Origin: Nitratireductor sp. ZSWI3
GTDB lineage: Bacteria; Pseudomonadota; Alphaproteobacteria; Rhizobiales; Rhizobiaceae
Assembly (NCBI RefSeq): GCF_024655565.1
Contig: NZ_JANKOF010000025.1
Coordinates: forward strand, 1 to 53,708
Reading direction: 5' to 3'
DNA length: 53,708 nucleotides
A model generated the notes under the pieces. It searched no databases. It was not told the origin of the DNA and saw nothing but the letters and a program-made list of their open reading frames with translations. Position numbers and translations under genes: made by a program. Shown here piece by piece: positions 29,652 to 41,585 of the stretch. Every line of letters starts with the position of its first letter. Position 1 is the first letter of the stretch.

Positions 29652-32600
29652 TTACTTCTTCAACTGTTCCTTGAGAGCGGCGAGCTTGGCGAAGGGCGAA
29701 TCGGGATCGATCTTCGCCGGGCGTTCCTCGCGCTGGCGATACGGCGCGCCCTTGCGCTGGAAGCCGTGCTTCTCGCCGTCCTCGTTGCGCTCCCTGCCAC
29801 GCGGCTTGCCGCGATGCTGCGGCTTGCCGTCGCGCTCCTGGCGACCGCCGCCCGGGCGGCCGTTCCGCTCGTTGCCCTTGCCGGCCGGGCGCTGGCCCTG
29901 CCGCTTGCGCCCCTCGAAACGGCCTTGCCGCCAGATCAGAACCGGCTTCGCCTCTTCCTGTTCCGCCGAAGCTTCCGGCAAGGCGGCATCGGCCTCCGCG
30001 ACCGTTTCAGCAGCAGGAGCCTCTTCTGCCGCAGGAGCTTCCACGGTCGCTGGGGTCGCGTCTTCCACGGCCGCCTGAGGCACAGCCTCCGCGGTCTCGG
30101 CCGGCGCATCGCCGGAGGGGGCCTCGGCTGCGGCTTCCGGGCTTTCGCCGGCCGCTTCGCCCGCGGCGGCATCGGCCTCGCCAGCCGGCGCCGGCTGAGA
30201 AGCGGCAGCAGCTTCGTCGAGAGTCTTCAGATGCGCGGCCACCTCTTCGGCCGGCTTCGCCTCGCCGCGATAGCCGAGCCCTTTGAGGATCGCCTCCATG
30301 TCGTCGGCGGTGGCGCCGAGGATCGACATCATCGCGGGCGTGACGACGAAGGCGCTGCCGTCATATCCGCCATCCGGACGCGCGCCGGTTCCGGGCCTCC
30401 AGGTCAGCGCGGGGCGGATGAGGTCGGCGAGCCGCTCCAGAATGTCCACACGCACGGCGCGGCGGCCGAGATTGCGATAGCCGGCCAGGCCGTAGAACGC
30501 CCGCTCGAATGTCGGCTCGGAGACGATGGAGGTGCGGCCGGCGGCAAGCGCGGTCACGACATCGCCGTAGCCGGGCTTGTCCTTGGCATCGTTCTTCAAC
30601 GCCCAGAGCAAGGTTATCAGCCCGGCGGGCGCCGGCTTGATCAGCGCCGGAACGAAGATGTGGTAGGCGCCGAAGCGCACGCCGAGACGACGCAGCGCGG
30701 CGCGCGCATCCTGGTCGAGCGCACGCACGTCCTCGGCCACATTGCGCCGGTTGATGAGGCCGAAATTCTCGGCGAGCTGGAACGCGATGCCGCGCGCCAT
30801 GCCCGACAGGCTTTCCGAATCGCGCAGGTCCACGAGCGGCTTCAGCAGGGATTCGATCTGGAAGTTGACGAAGCGCTCGGCGCGCGCGGCGACCTTGTCG
30901 CGCGCCGGCCCCGTCAACTGCTCGTCGGCCAGCAGCACGACGCGCGGCTTCAGCGCCTCGTCGCCGGCGACGAGCGTCGCCACGGGCTGCCCAAGCCAAC
31001 GCAGGAAACCATCGGAATCGAGCGCCAGATCGCCATTGCCGGAAGCGGCGAACCGATCGGCGCGCGACTCGAACTCGAGCGCCAGGGCCTTCTGCGCCGC
31101 GGCCTTGACCGCGCGCGCATCCTCGCCTTCCGCCGAGCGGTCGGCGGTGAAACGGAACCCTTGCATCTCACCAACGTGATGCCCCTCGACGAGGACTTCG
31201 CCTGCGGGGCTGACTTCTGCTTCCGGCATTGCATTCTCTCTCAGACGCTTCATGAGCACGGAAGTCCTGCGGTCCACGAAGCGTTTCGTCAATCGCTCAT
31301 GCAACGCATCGGACAGGCTGTCCTCGATCTCGCGTGTTTTTTCTTGCCAGTGTGTCGGATCGGCCAGCCACCCTGGCCGGTGCGAAACGAAAGTCCAGGT
31401 GCGAATCTGGGCGATCCGCTGCGACAGCGTGTCGATGTCGCCCTCGGTGGAGGAGGCGCGCTGCACCTGCTCTGCCATATAATCTTCATCGACGTGGCCC
31501 AAGCGCGCCAGGTCGTTGAAGACCGCGCCGACGAGCTCCGCATGCTGCGCCGGGGCGATCTTGCGATAGTCTGGCAAGGCGCAGGCGTCCCACAGAAGCG
31601 CGACGCGCTCGCGCCCCGTTGCGAGCGCACGAACCTCGTCGTCGCGCGACAGCAGATCGAGCACGCGCGCATCGGCGGCCGGCAGAGCCCGCGTCAACCC
31701 GTCGACGGGCGGCGTGACGTCGAGCGAGGCCTTCAGGGCATCGACGCTGGCGAAATCGAATTCGGCCGTTCGCCATTGCAGGACCTTGACCGGGTCGAAC
31801 TGGTGCGTCTCGATGCGCTCGACCAGCTCGTCGGGAAAGGGATCGACCTGGCCCGTGACGCCGAACGTGCCGTCGCGCAGGTGGCGGCCGGCGCGGCCGG
31901 CGATCTGGCCCAGCTCCGCCGGGTTGAGGTCGCGATACTGGAAGCCGTCGAACTTGCGGTTCTGCGCGAAGGCGACGTGATCGACGTCGAGGTTGAGGCC
32001 CATGCCGATCGCGTCCGTCGCGACCAGATAATCGACGTCGCCCGACTGGTAGAGCGCCACCTGGGCGTTGCGGGTGCGCGGGCTGAGCGCGCCGAGCACC
32101 ACCGCCACACCGCCGCGCTGGCGGCGGATCAATTCGCCGATCGCATAGACCTCGTCGGAGGAGAAGGCGACCACCGCCGAGCGGCGGGGCAGGCGCGTGA
32201 TCTTGCGCGATCCGGCATAGGTGAGCACCGACATGCGCGGCCGGGTGATCACCGAAAGGCCCGGCAGGAGCCTTTCCAGGATGCCGCGCATCGTTCCGGC
32301 GCCGAGGAGCAGCGTTTCCTGGCGCCCGCGCAGATGCAGGATGCGATCGGTGAAGATGTGCCCGCGCTCGAGATCGGCGGCGAGCTGCACCTCGTCGATG
32401 GCCACGAAGGCGGCATCGGTCTCGCGCGGCATCGCCTCGACGGTGCAGACCGAGTAGCGCGCGCCTGCCGGCGTGATCTTCTCCTCGCCGGTGATCAGCG
32501 CCACGTTCTGCTCGCCCGCCTTGGCGACGACGCGCGCATAGACCTCGCGCGCCAGAAGGCGCAGCGGCAGGCCGATCACCCCCGTGTGGTGGGCGACCAT

Positions 32601-32708
32601 GCGCTCGATGGCAAGATGCGTCTTGCCTGTATTGGTGGGCCCGAGGATGGCTGTCACGTCACGGCCGGACAGCGCCTGCGGCTTGCGTGTCTGAGACTGG
32701 AAATTCAT
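29652..32708 (-). CDS. SUV3/MgpS-like DEAD/DEAH-type RNA helicase
   Basis: The 1018-residue protein has Walker A in ILGPTNTGKTHLAIERM (about residues 21-37), the DExx motif in VAIDEVQLAADLERGH, and motif VI in AELGQIAGRAGRHLRDG. This is the SUV3-like Ski2-related layout. After about residue 740 the sequence turns into an Ala/Glu/Pro-rich low-complexity spacer and then a very basic Arg/Gly/Lys tail (GRKRQGQRPAGKGNERNG), probably RNA-binding. I start at MNFQSQTRK; 11 further residues upstream in frame are less likely. Its own upstream region is the unusual 766-bp gap. Confidence 0.92.
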   Translation of the reverse strand: MNFQSQTRKPQALSGRDVTAILGPTNTGKTHLAIERMVAHHTGVIGLPLRLLAREVYARVVAKAGEQNVALITGEEKITPAGARYSVCTVEAMPRETDAAFVAIDEVQLAADLERGHIFTDRILHLRGRQETLLLGAGTMRGILERLLPGLSVITRPRMSVLTYAGSRKITRLPRRSAVVAFSSDEVYAIGELIRRQRGGVAVVLGALSPRTRNAQVALYQSGDVDYLVATDAIGMGLNLDVDHVAFAQNRKFDGFQYRDLNPAELGQIAGRAGRHLRDGTFGVTGQVDPFPDELVERIETHQFDPVKVLQWRTAEFDFASVDALKASLDVTPPVDGLTRALPAADARVLDLLSRDDEVRALATGRERVALLWDACALPDYRKIAPAQHAELVGAVFNDLARLGHVDEDYMAEQVQRASSTEGDIDTLSQRIAQIRTWTFVSHRPGWLADPTHWQEKTREIEDSLSDALHERLTKRFVDRRTSVLMKRLRENAMPEAEVSPAGEVLVEGHHVGEMQGFRFTADRSAEGEDARAVKAAAQKALALEFESRADRFAASGNGDLALDSDGFLRWLGQPVATLVAGDEALKPRVVLLADEQLTGPARDKVAARAERFVNFQIESLLKPLVDLRDSESLSGMARGIAFQLAENFGLINRRNVAEDVRALDQDARAALRRLGVRFGAYHIFVPALIKPAPAGLITLLWALKNDAKDKPGYGDVVTALAAGRTSIVSEPTFERAFYGLAGYRNLGRRAVRVDILERLADLIRPALTWRPGTGARPDGGYDGSAFVVTPAMMSILGATADDMEAILKGLGYRGEAKPAEEVAAHLKTLDEAAAASQPAPAGEADAAAGEAAGESPEAAAEAPSGDAPAETAEAVPQAAVEDATPATVEAPAAEEAPAAETVAEADAALPEASAEQEEAKPVLIWRQGRFEGRKRQGQRPAGKGNERNGRPGGGRQERDGKPQHRGKPRGRERNEDGEKHGFQRKGAPYRQREERPAKIDPDSPFAKLAALKEQLKK

Positions 32709-32839
32709 AGAGCCCGGGAAGCCACTCTTCCTCAGCAACAAAAGGCGAGCCTTCGGTTACCACGCTTTGCATGGTTATTCCAAGATGCCAGTTTCTCACC
32801 CTTCGCGCCCGGCTTGGCGACCGCGGCACAATCATCGCC

Positions 32840-32921
32840 GTTAACGTCTGGAACGAGTCTGGAACGAATCAGCGACGAATCACTGACTCCGCCCGATTCC
32901 TGTTTTGTTCACCACAAGATG
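32840..32921. repeat. 82-bp direct repeat, copy 1, with four 11-bp iteron-like units
   Basis: It starts gttaac and ends ccacaagatg, ungapped against copy 2 (33111-33192), with about 57 of 82 positions identical by hand count. Tandem 11-mers lie at 32847-32857, 32858-32868, 32869-32879 and 32880-32890 (first two TCTGGAACGAG and TCTGGAACGAA). Five GANTC sites start at 32855, 32866, 32877, 32885 and 32895. Confidence 0.8.
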
Positions 32922-33110
32922 CAGTGCCTCGAACCTTCCTGGGACCGATATGCTGAATCGCCCTGCGCCCCTTCCCGCCGGAAATCGCCCGGATCGTTAA
33001 CCTTTTCGTCCAATGACCGGCACCGCCGGATCTCGCATTCTGTAACGGTAAGAATTCATTAAGGAATCTATACCGTGTGTGAAGGAAATTCCGCGCCGCC
33101 CCGTCCTGGC

Positions 33111-33192
33111 GTTAACACTCCGATCAAATGCGGAACGAATCGGCGACGAATCAGAGCGCGCCGCGTATTCCCGGTCTGTTCTCCACAAGATG
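33111..33192. repeat. 82-bp direct repeat, copy 2
   Basis: It has the same length and end points as copy 1. The best-kept blocks are gttaac, ggaacgaatcggcgacgaatca and ccacaagatg. It keeps two of the five GANTC sites (33137 and 33148, 11 bp apart). Confidence 0.8.
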
Positions 33193-33296
33193 TTGTGTCT
33201 TCCACCGGGCATCAACAGATTGGCCACAGCTTGTCCACAGCCGGCCGGCCGCCGGATGCACACGGCATTAACCGTTGTGGCTCAAATTGATACACA
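33179..33296 (+). promoter_or_regulatory. Cluster of DnaA-box-like 9-mers
   Basis: TTCTCCACA (33179), TTGGCCACA (33220), TTGTCCACA (33231) and TGATACACA (33288) resemble the DnaA consensus TTATNCACA with one or two mismatches. A weaker one, TTCACCACA, is at 32908 in repeat copy 1. None is a perfect box, so DnaA binding is only a possibility. Confidence 0.4.
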
Positions 33297-33320
33297 ACGC
33301 CGGATCGCATCGACGCCGCG

Positions 33321-33343
33321 CATGGTTCGACAAGCTCACCATG
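33321..33343. repeat. REP-like short palindrome
   Basis: The arms catggt and accatg enclose tcgacaagctc. The core ttcgacaagctca resembles short palindromic repeats I recall from many alphaproteobacterial genomes. A partial match (gctcaccatgag) lies at 53395-53406. Confidence 0.4.
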
Positions 33344-33474
33344 AAGGCTCCACGCGGCAGGAAGCCTTGCTCCGGGACATTGCACAAGGATTTGCAACCC
33401 TCTACTCCCTCATGGCAGGGCAATCGCATATGGATTTAGCCTACCTGTTTGATCCTTGGTTACCTTGTCCCCGA

Positions 33475-34356
33475 TCAGTGAAGCAGGCCCACCATGGCCT
33501 CCAGCAAGGCCTGCACGCGGCGGGGTTGCGCGCGCGTTGCAGGCCAGACAGCCTGCAACGGCAAGGCTGCCACCTGATACTCGGTCAAAAGTGACACCAA
33601 TCGGCCCACGGCCAGATCCTCAGAGATATCGCATTCGGATTTGCGCACGACCCCGTGCCCCGCCACGGCCCAGCGGCGCACGAGATCGCCGTCATTGGCC
33701 ATACGATCCCCGCGCACCATGACTGTTTGCGGCTGCTGGTCCACGACGAACGGCCAGTTTCGGTCCGCATCGGGGCCAAAGCGCATCAGGATGCAATTGT
33801 GCTGCACCAGATCGGTCGGGTGGCGTGGGATGCCGCACCGCTTCAGATATCTCGGCGCGGCGCAGACGATCCTTGAGCTGTCCGCCAGCTTTCGGGCAAT
33901 CAAACTGCTGTCCGCCAGATTGCCATACCTGATGGCCAGATCGAACCCCATGGCGGCGATGTCGACATAGCCATCCGCCAGATGCAGATCGACGGTCACT
34001 TCAGGATTATCTTGCAAGAACCGATCGATGATTGGCGACAAGCGATTTCGTCCAAGGTCCGATGGAGCGCTCAGGCGGATGGGGCCGGCGATCCGTTCGA
34101 CGCCGAGCCTTATCCGGCTCTCCAGTTCCTCGGCTTCCGCCAGCAGCCTGTTCGCCCCGGCAACAAGCTCGCGCCCTTCTTCGGTCAGGCTTATCGAGCG
34201 GGTTGTCCGGTTCAGCAGCCGCGCACCATAGTGGGCCTCCAGCGTCGCAAGGCGCTCGGACACCGTAGCCGGTGCAAGGCCCAGCTCCCGCCCGCCGGCG
34301 GCCAGCCCGCCCTTTTCGACGATGCGCAGAAACAGCGTGAGATTATCAAGCAGCAT
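33475..34356 (-). CDS. LysR-family transcriptional regulator
   Basis: The 293-residue protein has the N-terminal winged helix-turn-helix (LFLRIVEKGGLAAGGRELGLAPATVSERLATLE, about residues 8-40) and a substrate-binding effector domain (PIRLSAPSDLGRNRLSPII onward). It is of the DsdC/PecT-like group often found divergent to an oxidoreductase, here the SDR at 34594. A 19-bp palindrome 11 bp upstream of its ATG is the likely operator. Confidence 0.92.
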   Translation of the reverse strand: MLLDNLTLFLRIVEKGGLAAGGRELGLAPATVSERLATLEAHYGARLLNRTTRSISLTEEGRELVAGANRLLAEAEELESRIRLGVERIAGPIRLSAPSDLGRNRLSPIIDRFLQDNPEVTVDLHLADGYVDIAAMGFDLAIRYGNLADSSLIARKLADSSRIVCAAPRYLKRCGIPRHPTDLVQHNCILMRFGPDADRNWPFVVDQQPQTVMVRGDRMANDGDLVRRWAVAGHGVVRKSECDISEDLAVGRLVSLLTEYQVAALPLQAVWPATRAQPRRVQALLEAMVGLLH

Positions 34357-34367
34357 TCTTCGCCATT

Positions 34368-34386
34368 TCCGAATTATAATTTCGGA
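34368..34386. promoter_or_regulatory. Probable LysR operator
   Basis: The 19-bp sequence tccgaattataatttcgga is a near-perfect dyad (tccgaa / ttcgga) of the T-N11-A type bound by LysR proteins. It overlaps the most AT-rich part of the lysR-SDR gap and could act on both divergent promoters. Confidence 0.55.
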
Positions 34387-34593
34387 TTGTGCTCAATTCT
34401 CCCGCCAAGGCGCAAGGCGTAATTTTCCGATCACGGAGAAAACACGCCCATGCAACTCGACCTTGCCACCCTGCGCACACGCAACCTTCCTCGGACCCTG
34501 GCCTTTTTCGAAGAAATGGACGAGCGGCGCCTATTCCTGCGGCCCCCTACGGCCAGTCGATCGAAGCCGTCTTCCGCAATGAAGGACAAGCAC

Positions 34594-35265
34594 ATGACGC
34601 CCCTTTCTGACTCCAGAGCCATCGTCATCGGCGGAACTTCCGGCATCGGGGCGGCGCTGGCCGATGCACTTGAAATGCGCGGTGCCGAAGTCGTCCGCGC
34701 CAGCCGCGCCACCGGGTTGGACCTGGCGAATGGTGCGTCGCTGCCGGGTTGGTTCGATGCGCAAGGCCCTTTCGACCACCTTGTCGTCACTGCCGGATCG
34801 CAAGCCCCCGGCGGAGGGTTTGGAGCGCTCGACCTTAATGCCGCCCGCGCCGCTTTCGATGTGAAGTTCTGGGGGTCGGCCCGTGCCGCCCAGGCCGGGG
34901 CGGCACTGATCCGCCCCGGCGGCACCATCACCCTGACCAGCGGCTTCCTTGCCCGCCGCGCGACGCCCGGCAGTTTCACCAAGACCGCGATGAATGCGGC
35001 AATCGAGGCAACGGCCAAGCTGCTCGCCAACGAGCTTGCCCCCCTGCGGGTGAACGTCGTCAGCCCAGGGCTGACCGATACAGAGGCCTATGCTGCAATG
35101 CCTGAAGACAAGCGCATCGCCATGCTGACCGGCGCCGCCGGACGGCTGCCCGCCGGCCGTGTGGCGCAACCGCAGGATGTTGCCGCCGGCTACCTCTTCG
35201 CCATCGAAACCCCTTCCGTCACCGGCGCGGTCATCGACATCGACGGCGGCGCCCTGATCGCCTGA
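34594..35265 (+). CDS. Atypical SDR-family oxidoreductase
   Basis: The 223-residue protein has the cofactor motif VIGGTSGIGAALADAL and the C-terminal NVVSPGLTDTEAYAAMP of short-chain dehydrogenases. Where classical members have Tyr-x-x-x-Lys, this one reads GSFTKTAMNAAIEA, with no matching tyrosine or lysine, so the catalytic residues differ. I use the ATG at 34594 with AAGGA just upstream. The frame is open back to 34450, but those 48 codons do not resemble the family. Probable target of the divergent LysR regulator. Confidence 0.82.
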   Translation: MTPLSDSRAIVIGGTSGIGAALADALEMRGAEVVRASRATGLDLANGASLPGWFDAQGPFDHLVVTAGSQAPGGGFGALDLNAARAAFDVKFWGSARAAQAGAALIRPGGTITLTSGFLARRATPGSFTKTAMNAAIEATAKLLANELAPLRVNVVSPGLTDTEAYAAMPEDKRIAMLTGAAGRLPAGRVAQPQDVAAGYLFAIETPSVTGAVIDIDGGALIA

Positions 35266-35572
35266 CCCGAAGATGCGAAATGACCACTCATTTTGCCCCC
35301 CCTTGACCTGGCAGAGACTGCTATCGCATGGACCTCCCAGCGCCCTTGCGGGCTGGTCCAGAGGTTTTTTTTAACATCGCCGCAGATGTTCGATGCTAGC
35401 CGCATCAATTCTACCTGTTAGCCACCAATCCTCTCCCGGCCCCCTTTGTCAGAATCGTAAAATGGGTTTGTGGCAGTCCAGAATGGCATCACGAAAGAAT
35501 GCTTGACCTTAGTATTTCCGCGCCGCACCATTCTATTTGCGGCAGCGGGGAAACAACCAATCTTCAGAGATA
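35266..35572. other. 307-bp gene-free region before the SnoaL-like gene
   Basis: This stretch is AT-richer than its surroundings. I see no gene, repeat, clear promoter or terminator in it. Confidence 0.5.
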
Positions 35573-35965
35573 ATGCCAATGCCCCACGGACAACTGTCTG
35601 ATCTCTATCGGAACTATATCGACTGCCTGAACCGCCAAGACTGGATGAATCTCGGACAGTTCGTTGACGATAAGGTTCACTACAACGATAGGTGGGTGGG
35701 ACTGGTGGGTTATCGGGAGATGCTGGAAGGCGATTTTCGGGCCATCCCTGATCTTCACTTCAACATTGAGCTTTTGCTTTCCGACCCGCCGTGTGTCGCC
35801 AGCCGCCTGCATTTCGACTGCACTCCGACCGGCATCTTATTTGGCCTGCCCGTCAACGGTAAGCGGATCCAGTTCGACGAGAATGTGTTCTATGAGTTTG
35901 CCAATGGGAGGATCGCAAGGGTCTGGTCGATAATCGACAAGGCAGCGATTGCAGACCAAATCTGA
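35573..35965 (+). CDS. SnoaL-like (NTF2-fold) protein
   Basis: The 130-residue protein has the SnoaL/ester-cyclase pattern: LYRNYIDCLNRQDWMNLGQFVDDKVHYND, later GYREMLEGDFRAIPDLHFNIE, and a C-terminal RIARVWSIIDKAAI. Such proteins are small cone-shaped NTF2-fold enzymes or binding proteins, with polyketide cyclases among them. The substrate is unknown. Its GC content (about half) is clearly lower than the flanking genes, which suggests recent transfer. It follows the SDR gene on the same strand after a 307-bp gap. Confidence 0.8.
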   Translation: MPMPHGQLSDLYRNYIDCLNRQDWMNLGQFVDDKVHYNDRWVGLVGYREMLEGDFRAIPDLHFNIELLLSDPPCVASRLHFDCTPTGILFGLPVNGKRIQFDENVFYEFANGRIARVWSIIDKAAIADQI

Positions 35966-37033: not shown

Positions 37034-38218
37034 CTACAGCGCTTCGACGCACATGGCGACGCCCATGCCGCCGCCGATGCACAGGGTCGCGAGCCCCTTC
37101 TTCGCGCCGCGACGGCGCATCTCGAAGACCAGCGTGTTGAAGATGCGCGCGCCCGACGCCCCGATCGGATGCCCGATCGCGATCGCACCGCCGTTGACAT
37201 TGACCACGTCCGGGTTCCAGCCCATGTCCTTGTTGACCGCGCAGGCCTGGGCGGCAAAGGCCTCGTTCGCCTCGACGAGGTCGAGGTCCTCGGCCCTCCA
37301 GCCGGCTTTTTCCAGCGCCTTGCGCGATGCCGGGATCGGGCCGGTGCCCATGATCGTCGGGTCGACGCCGGCCGTCGCCCAGGATGCGATGCGGGCGAGC
37401 GGCGCCAGGCCGCGCCGCCTGGCTTCGCTCTCGCTCATCAGAACCACGGCGGCGGCCCCGTCATTGAGCCCCGAGGCATTGGCGGCCGTCACGGTGCCCT
37501 CCTTGTCGAAGGCCGGGCGCAGCTTCTGCATGCTCTCCAGCGTGGCGCCGTGGCGGATGTATTCGTCCTCCGCAACCACGGTCTCGCCCTTGCGGGTCTT
37601 GACGGTGACCGGAACGATCTCGTCCTTGAAGCGGCCGGCCTTCTGGGCGGCTTCCGCCTTGTGTTGCGAGGCGAGGGCGAACGCGTCCTGCTGCTCGCGG
37701 GTGATCTGGAACTGGCGCGCCACGTTCTCCGCCGTGATGCCCATGTGATAGCCGTTGAAGGCATCCCACAGCCCGTCGCGGATCATCGTATCGATCATCG
37801 CATAGTCGCCCATCTTCACGCCGCCGCGCAGATGCGCGCAGTGCGGCGACAGGGACATCGATTCCTGGCCGCCGGCGACGATGATGTCGGCATCCCCCGT
37901 GGCGATCTGCTGCATGCCGATGGCGATGGTGCGCAGGCCCGAACCGCAGACCTGGTTCAGCACCCAGGCCGTCGTCTCCTTCGGCAGGCCGGCGGCGATG
38001 GACGCCTGGCGGGCGGGGTTCTGCCCCTGGCCGGCGGTCAGCACCTGGCCGAGGATCACCTCGTTCACCTCCTCGGCGGCCACCCCGGCCCGCGACAGGA
38101 CCTCGCGGATGGCGGTGGCACCCAGCTCATGCGCCGGGACAGCGGCGAACGCCCCATTGAACGAGCCGACCGGCGTGCGGGCGGCGCTGGCGATGACGAT
38201 GGCTTCGGCAGAGGACAT
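37034..38218 (-). CDS. phaA: Acetyl-CoA acetyltransferase PhaA
   Basis: The 394-residue biosynthetic thiolase condenses two acetyl-CoA to acetoacetyl-CoA. The acyl-enzyme Cys91 lies in [15 protein letters not shown]. The His in [14 protein letters not shown] and the C-terminal Cys in [13 protein letters not shown] complete the active site. The ATG ([18 protein letters not shown]) has GGGAG upstream. It is the first gene of the phaA-phaB unit and is divergent from phaR. Confidence 0.96.
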
Positions 38219-41570: not shown

Positions 41571-41585
41571 TTAATCGGCCGTTAA
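41571..41585 (+). promoter_or_regulatory. CtrA-type box upstream of the hybrid histidine kinase
   Basis: TTAA (41571-41574), exactly 7 nt, then TTAA (41582-41585). This matches the full alphaproteobacterial CtrA consensus TTAA-N7-TTAA. It is about 50-60 bp upstream of the kinase ATG, a normal position for promoter control. Confidence 0.65.

Follow-up and report, generated by a model that had tools for sequence, protein, structure and literature searches.

A conserved GANTC array before an SUV3-like helicase gene: a candidate methylation-sensitive control region of Alphaproteobacteria

Introduction

What does a gene-free stretch crowded with GANTC, the target of the CcrM methylase, do in front of a gene for an SUV3-like helicase? 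The initial annotation of this locus left three readings side by side: a methylation-sensitive control region, a DnaA-titrating locus and an unrecognized replication origin. Here we weigh these readings, together with several that it did not raise, against the distribution of the array among relatives, its neighboring genes, its motif content and its company with GcrA and CcrM.

Two copies of one unit

The window, by which we mean the whole 53,708-bp stretch analyzed (contig C25 of a 5.21-Mb draft genome), contains 78 GANTC sites. Nine of them, at 32855, 32866, 32877, 32885, 32895, 32955, 33064, 33137 and 33148, fall within 298 bp (32855-33152), between the helicase gene and a LysR gene (33475-34356, minus strand), and no other 298-bp stretch of the contig holds nine. 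At the window's own density 0.43 sites would be expected in such a span (Poisson P ~1e-9); the less demanding expectation of 1.2 used in the initial annotation gives P ~5e-6, and both values carry no correction for the prior choice of the 298-bp span. The count of nine reported there is correct, the spacings of 11, 11, 8 and 10 bp among five of the sites are exact, and the 11-bp tandem units that it described are real (Table 1). What it overlooked is that the region consists of two imperfect copies of one unit, 271 bp apart, each roughly 90-120 bp long, with cores at 32861-32882 and 33132-33153; the five phased GANTC belong to unit 1. Sets of three GANTC separated by gaps of 2-6 bp occur at just two loci of the draft genome, the array and the hemE side.

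Table 1. Coordinates of the array, its motifs and the adjoining helicase gene in the window
Feature	Position	Strand	Match
Unit 1, helicase-proximal: TTAA, three 11-bp iterons, TTC/TTTGTTC, CNANATNTNG-like site, second site +31 bp	32841..32959	+	model R1, 32839-32926
Unit 2: two 11-bp iterons, GTTC, full CNANATNTNG palindrome	33112..33198	+	model R1, 33110-33197
Three tandem 11-bp iterons, GGAACGAGTCT/GGAACGAATCA/GCGACGAATCA	32850..32882	+	
TGATTCG heptamer pair, 11-bp step, reading toward the helicase; fits GcrA YGAKTCK	32865..32882	-	
Second heptamer pair, CGATTCG and TGATTCG, 11-bp step	33136..33153	-	
Unit 1 CNANATNTNG-type site, CAAGATGCAG, 5/6 key bases	32915..32924	.	
Conserved second site at +31 bp in first units, GAATC at its end, CGATATGCTGAATC	32946..32959	.	
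Unit 2 CNANATNTNG palindrome, CAAGATGTTG, 6/6 key bases	33186..33195	.	
Two DnaA-box-like TTNTCCACA, at 33179 and 33231; lineage-specific	33179..33239	+	
SUV3-like helicase gene, likely start ATG 32708 (by eye)	29652..32708	-	Pfam DEXQc_Suv3 5.4e-26, Helicase_C 1e-9

Two further features mark the LysR side of the gap. A palindromic REP-like repeat of the GTTCGACAAGCTCACCATGA type (~33307-33347) is dispersed, matching at many places in this genome and in those of relatives. Beyond it, LysR, SDR and one more small gene (33475-35965) separate the element from a phbB-like gene; this block looks inserted in the lineage of the window, since same-genus relatives have the 3' end of the phbB-like gene directly after the element.

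Conservation across the class

When the 733-bp gap was used as a query, 14 of 30 genomes matched: the genome itself, all nine others of the genus and four of eight from other genera of the family; the 12 genomes drawn from the order's other families gave no match. By eye, GANTC 32877 and 32955 are kept in all 14 rows of the resulting alignment and 33148 in all 13 rows that have unit 2; 32855, 32866 and 33137 are missing in some rows, and 32885, 32895 and 33064 are not conserved. The exact 22-bp core reaches further, to at least 119 stretches of the genome collection. The 80 core loci listed come mostly from Rhizobiales, including Mesorhizobium, Rhizobium, Agrobacterium, Brucella, Bartonella and Hoeflea, with three MAGs that bear only a class or phylum name and one isolate labeled Marinicella.

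Units were analyzed in these 80 of the at least 119 core loci, the other 39 being added for helicase position and motif only. Together with the 14 gap-query loci they make 94, of which 93 yielded 202 units, one to four per locus; four unit matches with five mismatches were left out before counting, leaving 198. GANTC is found 850 times in the 45,041 nt of the units (18.9 per kb) and 770 times in 607,240 nt of flanks (1.27 per kb), and its density is higher inside the units in 93 of 93 loci. The initial annotation had exposed itself on two points, a loss of spacing and iterons in close relatives and an ordinary GANTC density; it survived both, as close relatives retain spacing and iterons and the density is far from that of the flanks. 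Conservation is poor outside the units.

The element is a single locus: in four of four genomes every match to the 22-mer core with up to three mismatches lies there. We therefore rejected a dispersed repeat, only the sequence from ~33307 onward being of that kind. With a sequence-only model (R1) built from 41 diverse units, the element was detected in 146 of 199 genomes of the family and, among 385 genomes of the class, in 46 at E<=0.01 and in 33, spanning 16 family groups, at E<=1e-4. Most of the 45 class genomes other than our own have one match and Rhizobiaceae genomes have one to five; going by these matches, the unit is duplicated in Rhizobiaceae. In Sinorhizobium meliloti unit 1 is intact and, by eye, the iterons of the second unit have been lost. 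Housekeeping genes, rpmF for one, make the S. meliloti record CP090106.1, labeled plasmid pSymB at 3.72 Mb, look like a mislabeled chromosome.

A probable control region of the helicase gene

That the array lies upstream of an SUV3-like helicase gene, as first proposed, is borne out by the Pfam match in the window and by tblastn in relatives. In 108 of 119 core loci (of at least 119 in the collection), made up of 72 among the 80 and 36 among the 39, the helicase adjoins a unit and is encoded on the other strand; in the remaining 11 the motif is within ~600 bp of the end of the locus, so that position cannot be judged. Among class loci from other families (the best 29 of 45 matching genomes besides our own) it stands beside the element in 26, the distance between the edge of the unit and the start of the helicase being 55-152 bp in 20 and 210-493 bp in six. 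The three without it were assigned by eye: one element has MerR-type and other genes as neighbors (L236), one an acyl-CoA dehydrogenase gene (L242), and one (L248) lies between an acyl-CoA dehydrogenase gene and a small gene, next to which comes a ferredoxin gene resembling the one that trails the helicase elsewhere. In Rhizobium rhizophilum (L132) 1.7 kb separates the two units, the first staying beside the helicase and the second beside phbB. We consider it likely that the element is cis-regulatory DNA for the helicase. A consensus scan of 32600-33500 detected no sigma-70 promoter.

Helicase genes also occur without the element. Our control set of 80 hand-picked genomes of the class, all lacking a strong match to the element (41 without a GcrA row, 39 with one; three weak element matches, G221, G275 and G316, included) gave a helicase match in 53 genomes, 49 of them above the cut-off, and hence 51 upstream regions. 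Traces of the element at E ~0.001 were present in two of these 51 (G308 and G316), with one further match in G242 at E 0.074; reversed sequences gave none below 0.5.

The gene order in S. meliloti is phbA-phbB-helicase-S4-ferredoxin-CarD-sigma-32, with the element before the helicase and the CarD and sigma-32 genes further along the helicase operon. Judging from this order we take the element-bearing helicase gene to be SMc03877 (mgpS), and the SUV3-like helicase gene is probably the counterpart of S. meliloti mgpS. In Rhodobacter sphaeroides, mgpS was reportedly described in 1996 as a complex regulatory locus; we know of no role of GANTC or GcrA ascribed to it. For SMc03877, the names mgpS and RNA helicase both appear in the relevant passage of PMC4941405.

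Motif content and its candidate readers

In a profile of 187 units, from which near-identical ones had been removed, the near-invariant positions are TTAA, GGAACGAATC, GCGACGAATC at +11 bp, GA, TTC, TTTGTTC and C.A.AT.T.G. Units usually have two GANTC at an 11-bp step, read as YGATTCG on the helicase strand. The heptamer YGAKTCK is matched on that strand by all 174 surviving core 1 GANTC and by 197 of 198 at core 2, by 75 of 75 and 82 of 82 in the further 39 loci, and in 29 of 29 class loci, counts that lean high because units were found through the core motif and class loci through a model that contains it; among flank GANTC, 203 of 764 (27%) fit on either strand. In 2.466 of the 3.704 Mb of a single-contig congener, G009, the 11-bp YGAKTCK pair occurs only in unit 1 and unit 2.

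These heptamers are what GcrA would be expected to read, and a rival reader must be considered. OmpR/PhoB-family regulators use 11-bp direct repeats, and a helix-phased regulator other than GcrA could bind the array as RACGAA repeats, with GANTC arising incidentally through GAATC and its methylation irrelevant or secondary. Several features invite this reading: GAACGAA and GACGAATC are better conserved than GANTC as such; 24 of 198 units have lost the core 1 GANTC and kept GAACGAA, while the GANTC of core 2 is present in all 198; the N position is occupied by A throughout (198 of 198 at each core), which is stricter than CcrM needs; TTTGTTC and the palindrome are nearly invariant as well; and non-core GANTC in units fit YGAKTCK at the background rate (92 of 389). 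An incidental origin sits poorly, however, with the accumulation of GANTC in first units (a mean of 5.6 against 2.3 in later units), with the excess density over the flanks, with the match of the core heptamers to YGAKTCK and with the co-occurrence of GcrA documented below, and the motif is linked to no OmpR-type protein. We regard such a regulator as a serious candidate, though a less likely one than GcrA.

The palindrome suggests another reader. The NrdR box is 16 bp long, and the CNANATNTNG sites could be NrdR boxes that couple the helicase operon to nucleotide supply, an idea that could coexist with methylation-sensitive control. The consensus acaCwAtATaTwGtg and spacers of 15-16 bp are given in the pertinent excerpts of PMC4009431 and PMC12051234, respectively. 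Of 198 units, 159 have C.A.AT.T.G at +54, as do 72 of 82 in further loci, compared with 0.00015 per flank position; a score of at least 10/15 against the box is reached by 85 of 105 later and 30 of 84 first units but by 0 of 4302 background positions. In 77 of 84 first units a second site (at least 5/6 key bases) follows at exactly +31 bp, equal to one 16-bp box and a 15-bp spacer. Yet this second site is a conserved, nonpalindromic CCACATGCTGAATC that scores at least 10/15 in one of 84 first units and has C for the T of NrdR in 86% of them; a second box at the 31-bp step is present in only 11 of 105 later units; and the gene downstream encodes an SUV3-like helicase rather than a ribonucleotide reductase. 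A motif scan of the loci examined recognized no ribonucleotide-reductase gene or promoter of the lineage for comparison. We keep NrdR control as a rival of low probability.

Other proposals were set aside. A LexA box is GTTC-N7-GTTC; GAAC-N7-GAAC occurs in unit 1 types and is absent from unit 2 types, and the TTC-N7-GTTC pair is without the first G. An EcfG promoter has the form GGAAC...GTT, and by eye the GTT is missing at the required distance. A CRISPR-DR28 match at 33503 (E 3.2) was taken as chance.

Company with GcrA and CcrM

Of the 385 genomes of the class, 245 have GcrA, and our own genome has it too. All 33 genomes with the element at E<=1e-4 encode it, compared with 212 of 352 others (Fisher P 1.4e-7, uncorrected for kinship). 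In 50 genomes tested for the RAMA (CcrM-type) domain, namely the 45 class matches other than our own and five small family genomes, GcrA was found in 47 and RAMA in 48; the three without GcrA (G275, G316 and G591) have weak element matches. Four small family genomes (G015, G064, G092 and G096) have GcrA and RAMA and no element, and of the 49 control genomes 30 have GcrA (one weakly) and 19 do not, so that many GcrA lineages are without the element. From these element-less genomes with both proteins, and from the control upstream regions, we conclude that GcrA and CcrM do not require the element. Of the two controls with traces, G308 has GcrA, and in G316 none was detected. The G316 genome (84% complete) carries TGATTCG three times at exact 11-bp steps before the helicase (L293:1340-1390), the other parts of the unit being barely recognizable.

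Excerpts of two papers put forward the hypothesis that only methylated TGATTCG/YGAKTCK sites are activated by GcrA (PMC7987155, PMC8725594); in Brevundimonas subvibrioides, according to the same portion of the first, GcrA-activated genes show only a slight preference beyond GANTC (PMC7987155). In the main texts of the CcrM, GcrA and methylome papers searched, the word "helicase" does not appear, and none of the titles listed by a literature search describes this element.

Within the 2.466 Mb of G009, the four 300-bp windows with at least six GANTC lie in the hisH-hisA gap (659.7 kb), at oriC (645.7 kb), upstream of gcrA (1180.7 kb) and at the element (206.1 kb). The element keeps company with cell-cycle loci, given that oriC and the gcrA upstream region are among these dense windows. 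The hisH-hisA window (L190:3744-4008) has seven GANTC per 300 bp between hisH- and hisA-like genes and is among the two densest sampled. At gcrA (L338:10672-10875) six GANTC lie upstream of the gene and in its 5' part, a cluster that might reflect methylation feedback on gcrA.

Probably neither origin nor RNA gene

Could the array be a replication origin, or a locus that titrates or reactivates DnaA? It contains DnaA-like boxes, a GANTC cluster, TTAA motifs and AT-rich islands, and in G009 it lies ~440 kb from hemE. Of the DnaA-like boxes, four or five by the first count, only two are TTNTCCACA, and the remainder match only TTNNCCACA. Such boxes follow 44 of the 105 later units and just one of the 84 first units, a lineage-specific pattern rather than a conserved cluster, which leaves DnaA titration unsupported. 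The CtrA-like motifs fare similarly: the half sites TTAA and GTTAAC are present, and the full TTAA-N7-TTAA that characterizes CtrA-bound regions is absent from the array, its sole occurrence in the window being at 41571. An origin at this position conflicts with the GC skew of G009, measured in 40 stretches (20-kb samples), which stays negative as far as 630 kb, is positive from 740 kb onward and reverts between ~2.5 and 2.6 Mb; the sample at 2.13 Mb breaks the pattern, and near hemE the signal in 4-kb windows is noisy. The turn from minus to plus brackets parS (637-639 kb) and hemE (645 kb), not the element at 206 kb. Our own genome has a separate oriC candidate by hemE (contig C10) with six GANTC (37449-37593), where the unit profile has no significant match (best E 1.9). 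We consider an origin, or a locus that titrates or reactivates DnaA, very improbable. Of the three initial readings, then, the control region is the best supported, having passed the conservation and density tests, and the two others are not supported.

Small RNA genes or a structured leader appear similarly remote. The intergenic position and tandem copies ~270 bp apart would suit them, and so would a CTATAT on the plus strand of S. meliloti at the palindrome, which the rhizobial -10 consensus resembles. Against this, the consensus fold of 41 sequences reaches -0.96 kcal/mol with no compensatory pair, which points to constraint at the level of DNA, not of RNA, and conservation fades outside the units. 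Rfam returned only tRNA at the gathering threshold in four loci and, in the window, one match far below it.

A model of the element

We favor, with little better than even confidence, a reading in which the region is control DNA of the helicase gene, a conserved protein-binding array with an input sensitive to CcrM and GcrA; it is based on position, conservation, 11-bp phasing, YGATTCG on the helicase strand and the co-occurrence of GcrA and CcrM. That methylation and GcrA are themselves the input is, on sequence grounds, evenly balanced. The array is probably an ancient cell-cycle-linked switch for the helicase gene and not a replication origin. We posit that CcrM methylates the GANTC sites of the element and that fully methylated YGATTCG pairs help to recruit GcrA with sigma-70 RNA polymerase. 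Once the replication fork had passed, the sites would be hemimethylated and expression altered until CcrM returns, and helicase output would therefore follow replication of the locus. GcrA as a full account would leave TTTGTTC and CNANATNTNG unexplained; for the invariant ACGAA, TTTGTTC and CNANATNTNG motifs, at least one further binder is probable. More tentatively, and as an extension that we rate as possible rather than likely, the element could be a class-wide epigenetic timer (16 family groups, E<=1e-4) where a second DNA-binding protein acts with the 11-bp-phased methylation array to couple an RNA-helicase operon to fork passage, the two to five copies of Rhizobiaceae sharpening the response.

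It is unusual for noncoding control DNA to persist through much of a bacterial class. Should methylation be the input here, the element would offer a compact, single-locus, multicopy substrate for studying how GcrA reads phased methylated sites, and would bring a little-studied SUV3-type RNA helicase into the alphaproteobacterial cell cycle. It also warns that a GANTC cluster with DnaA-like boxes does not by itself make an origin, a trap for origin prediction.

Comparison with known systems

The element resembles several characterized systems and coincides with none. With the hemE-oriC of Alphaproteobacteria it shares dense GANTC, DnaA-like and TTAA motifs, whereas it lies off the skew switch and away from hemE, in a genome with a separate oriC candidate. 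With the paired boxes of NrdR operators it shares the CNANATNTNG site and, in first units, the 31-bp step, yet its second box is nonpalindromic and a helicase, not a ribonucleotide reductase, lies downstream. The likeness to the mgpS locus is one of gene context, the S. meliloti helicase also being preceded by the element. Closest are the CcrM/GcrA promoters such as Caulobacter ctrA, ftsZ and mipZ, with conserved GANTC in the region upstream of the gene, and the element likely works like one of them: its heptamers TGATTCG and CGATTCG are instances of the extended GcrA motif YGAKTCK as it appears in parts of PMC7987155, PMC8725594 and PMC3973325. Unlike these promoters, it places two or three sites at an 11-bp phase in a conserved unit of 90-120 bp, repeats that unit one to five times and carries further invariant motifs, and its dependence on GcrA and CcrM is a prediction.
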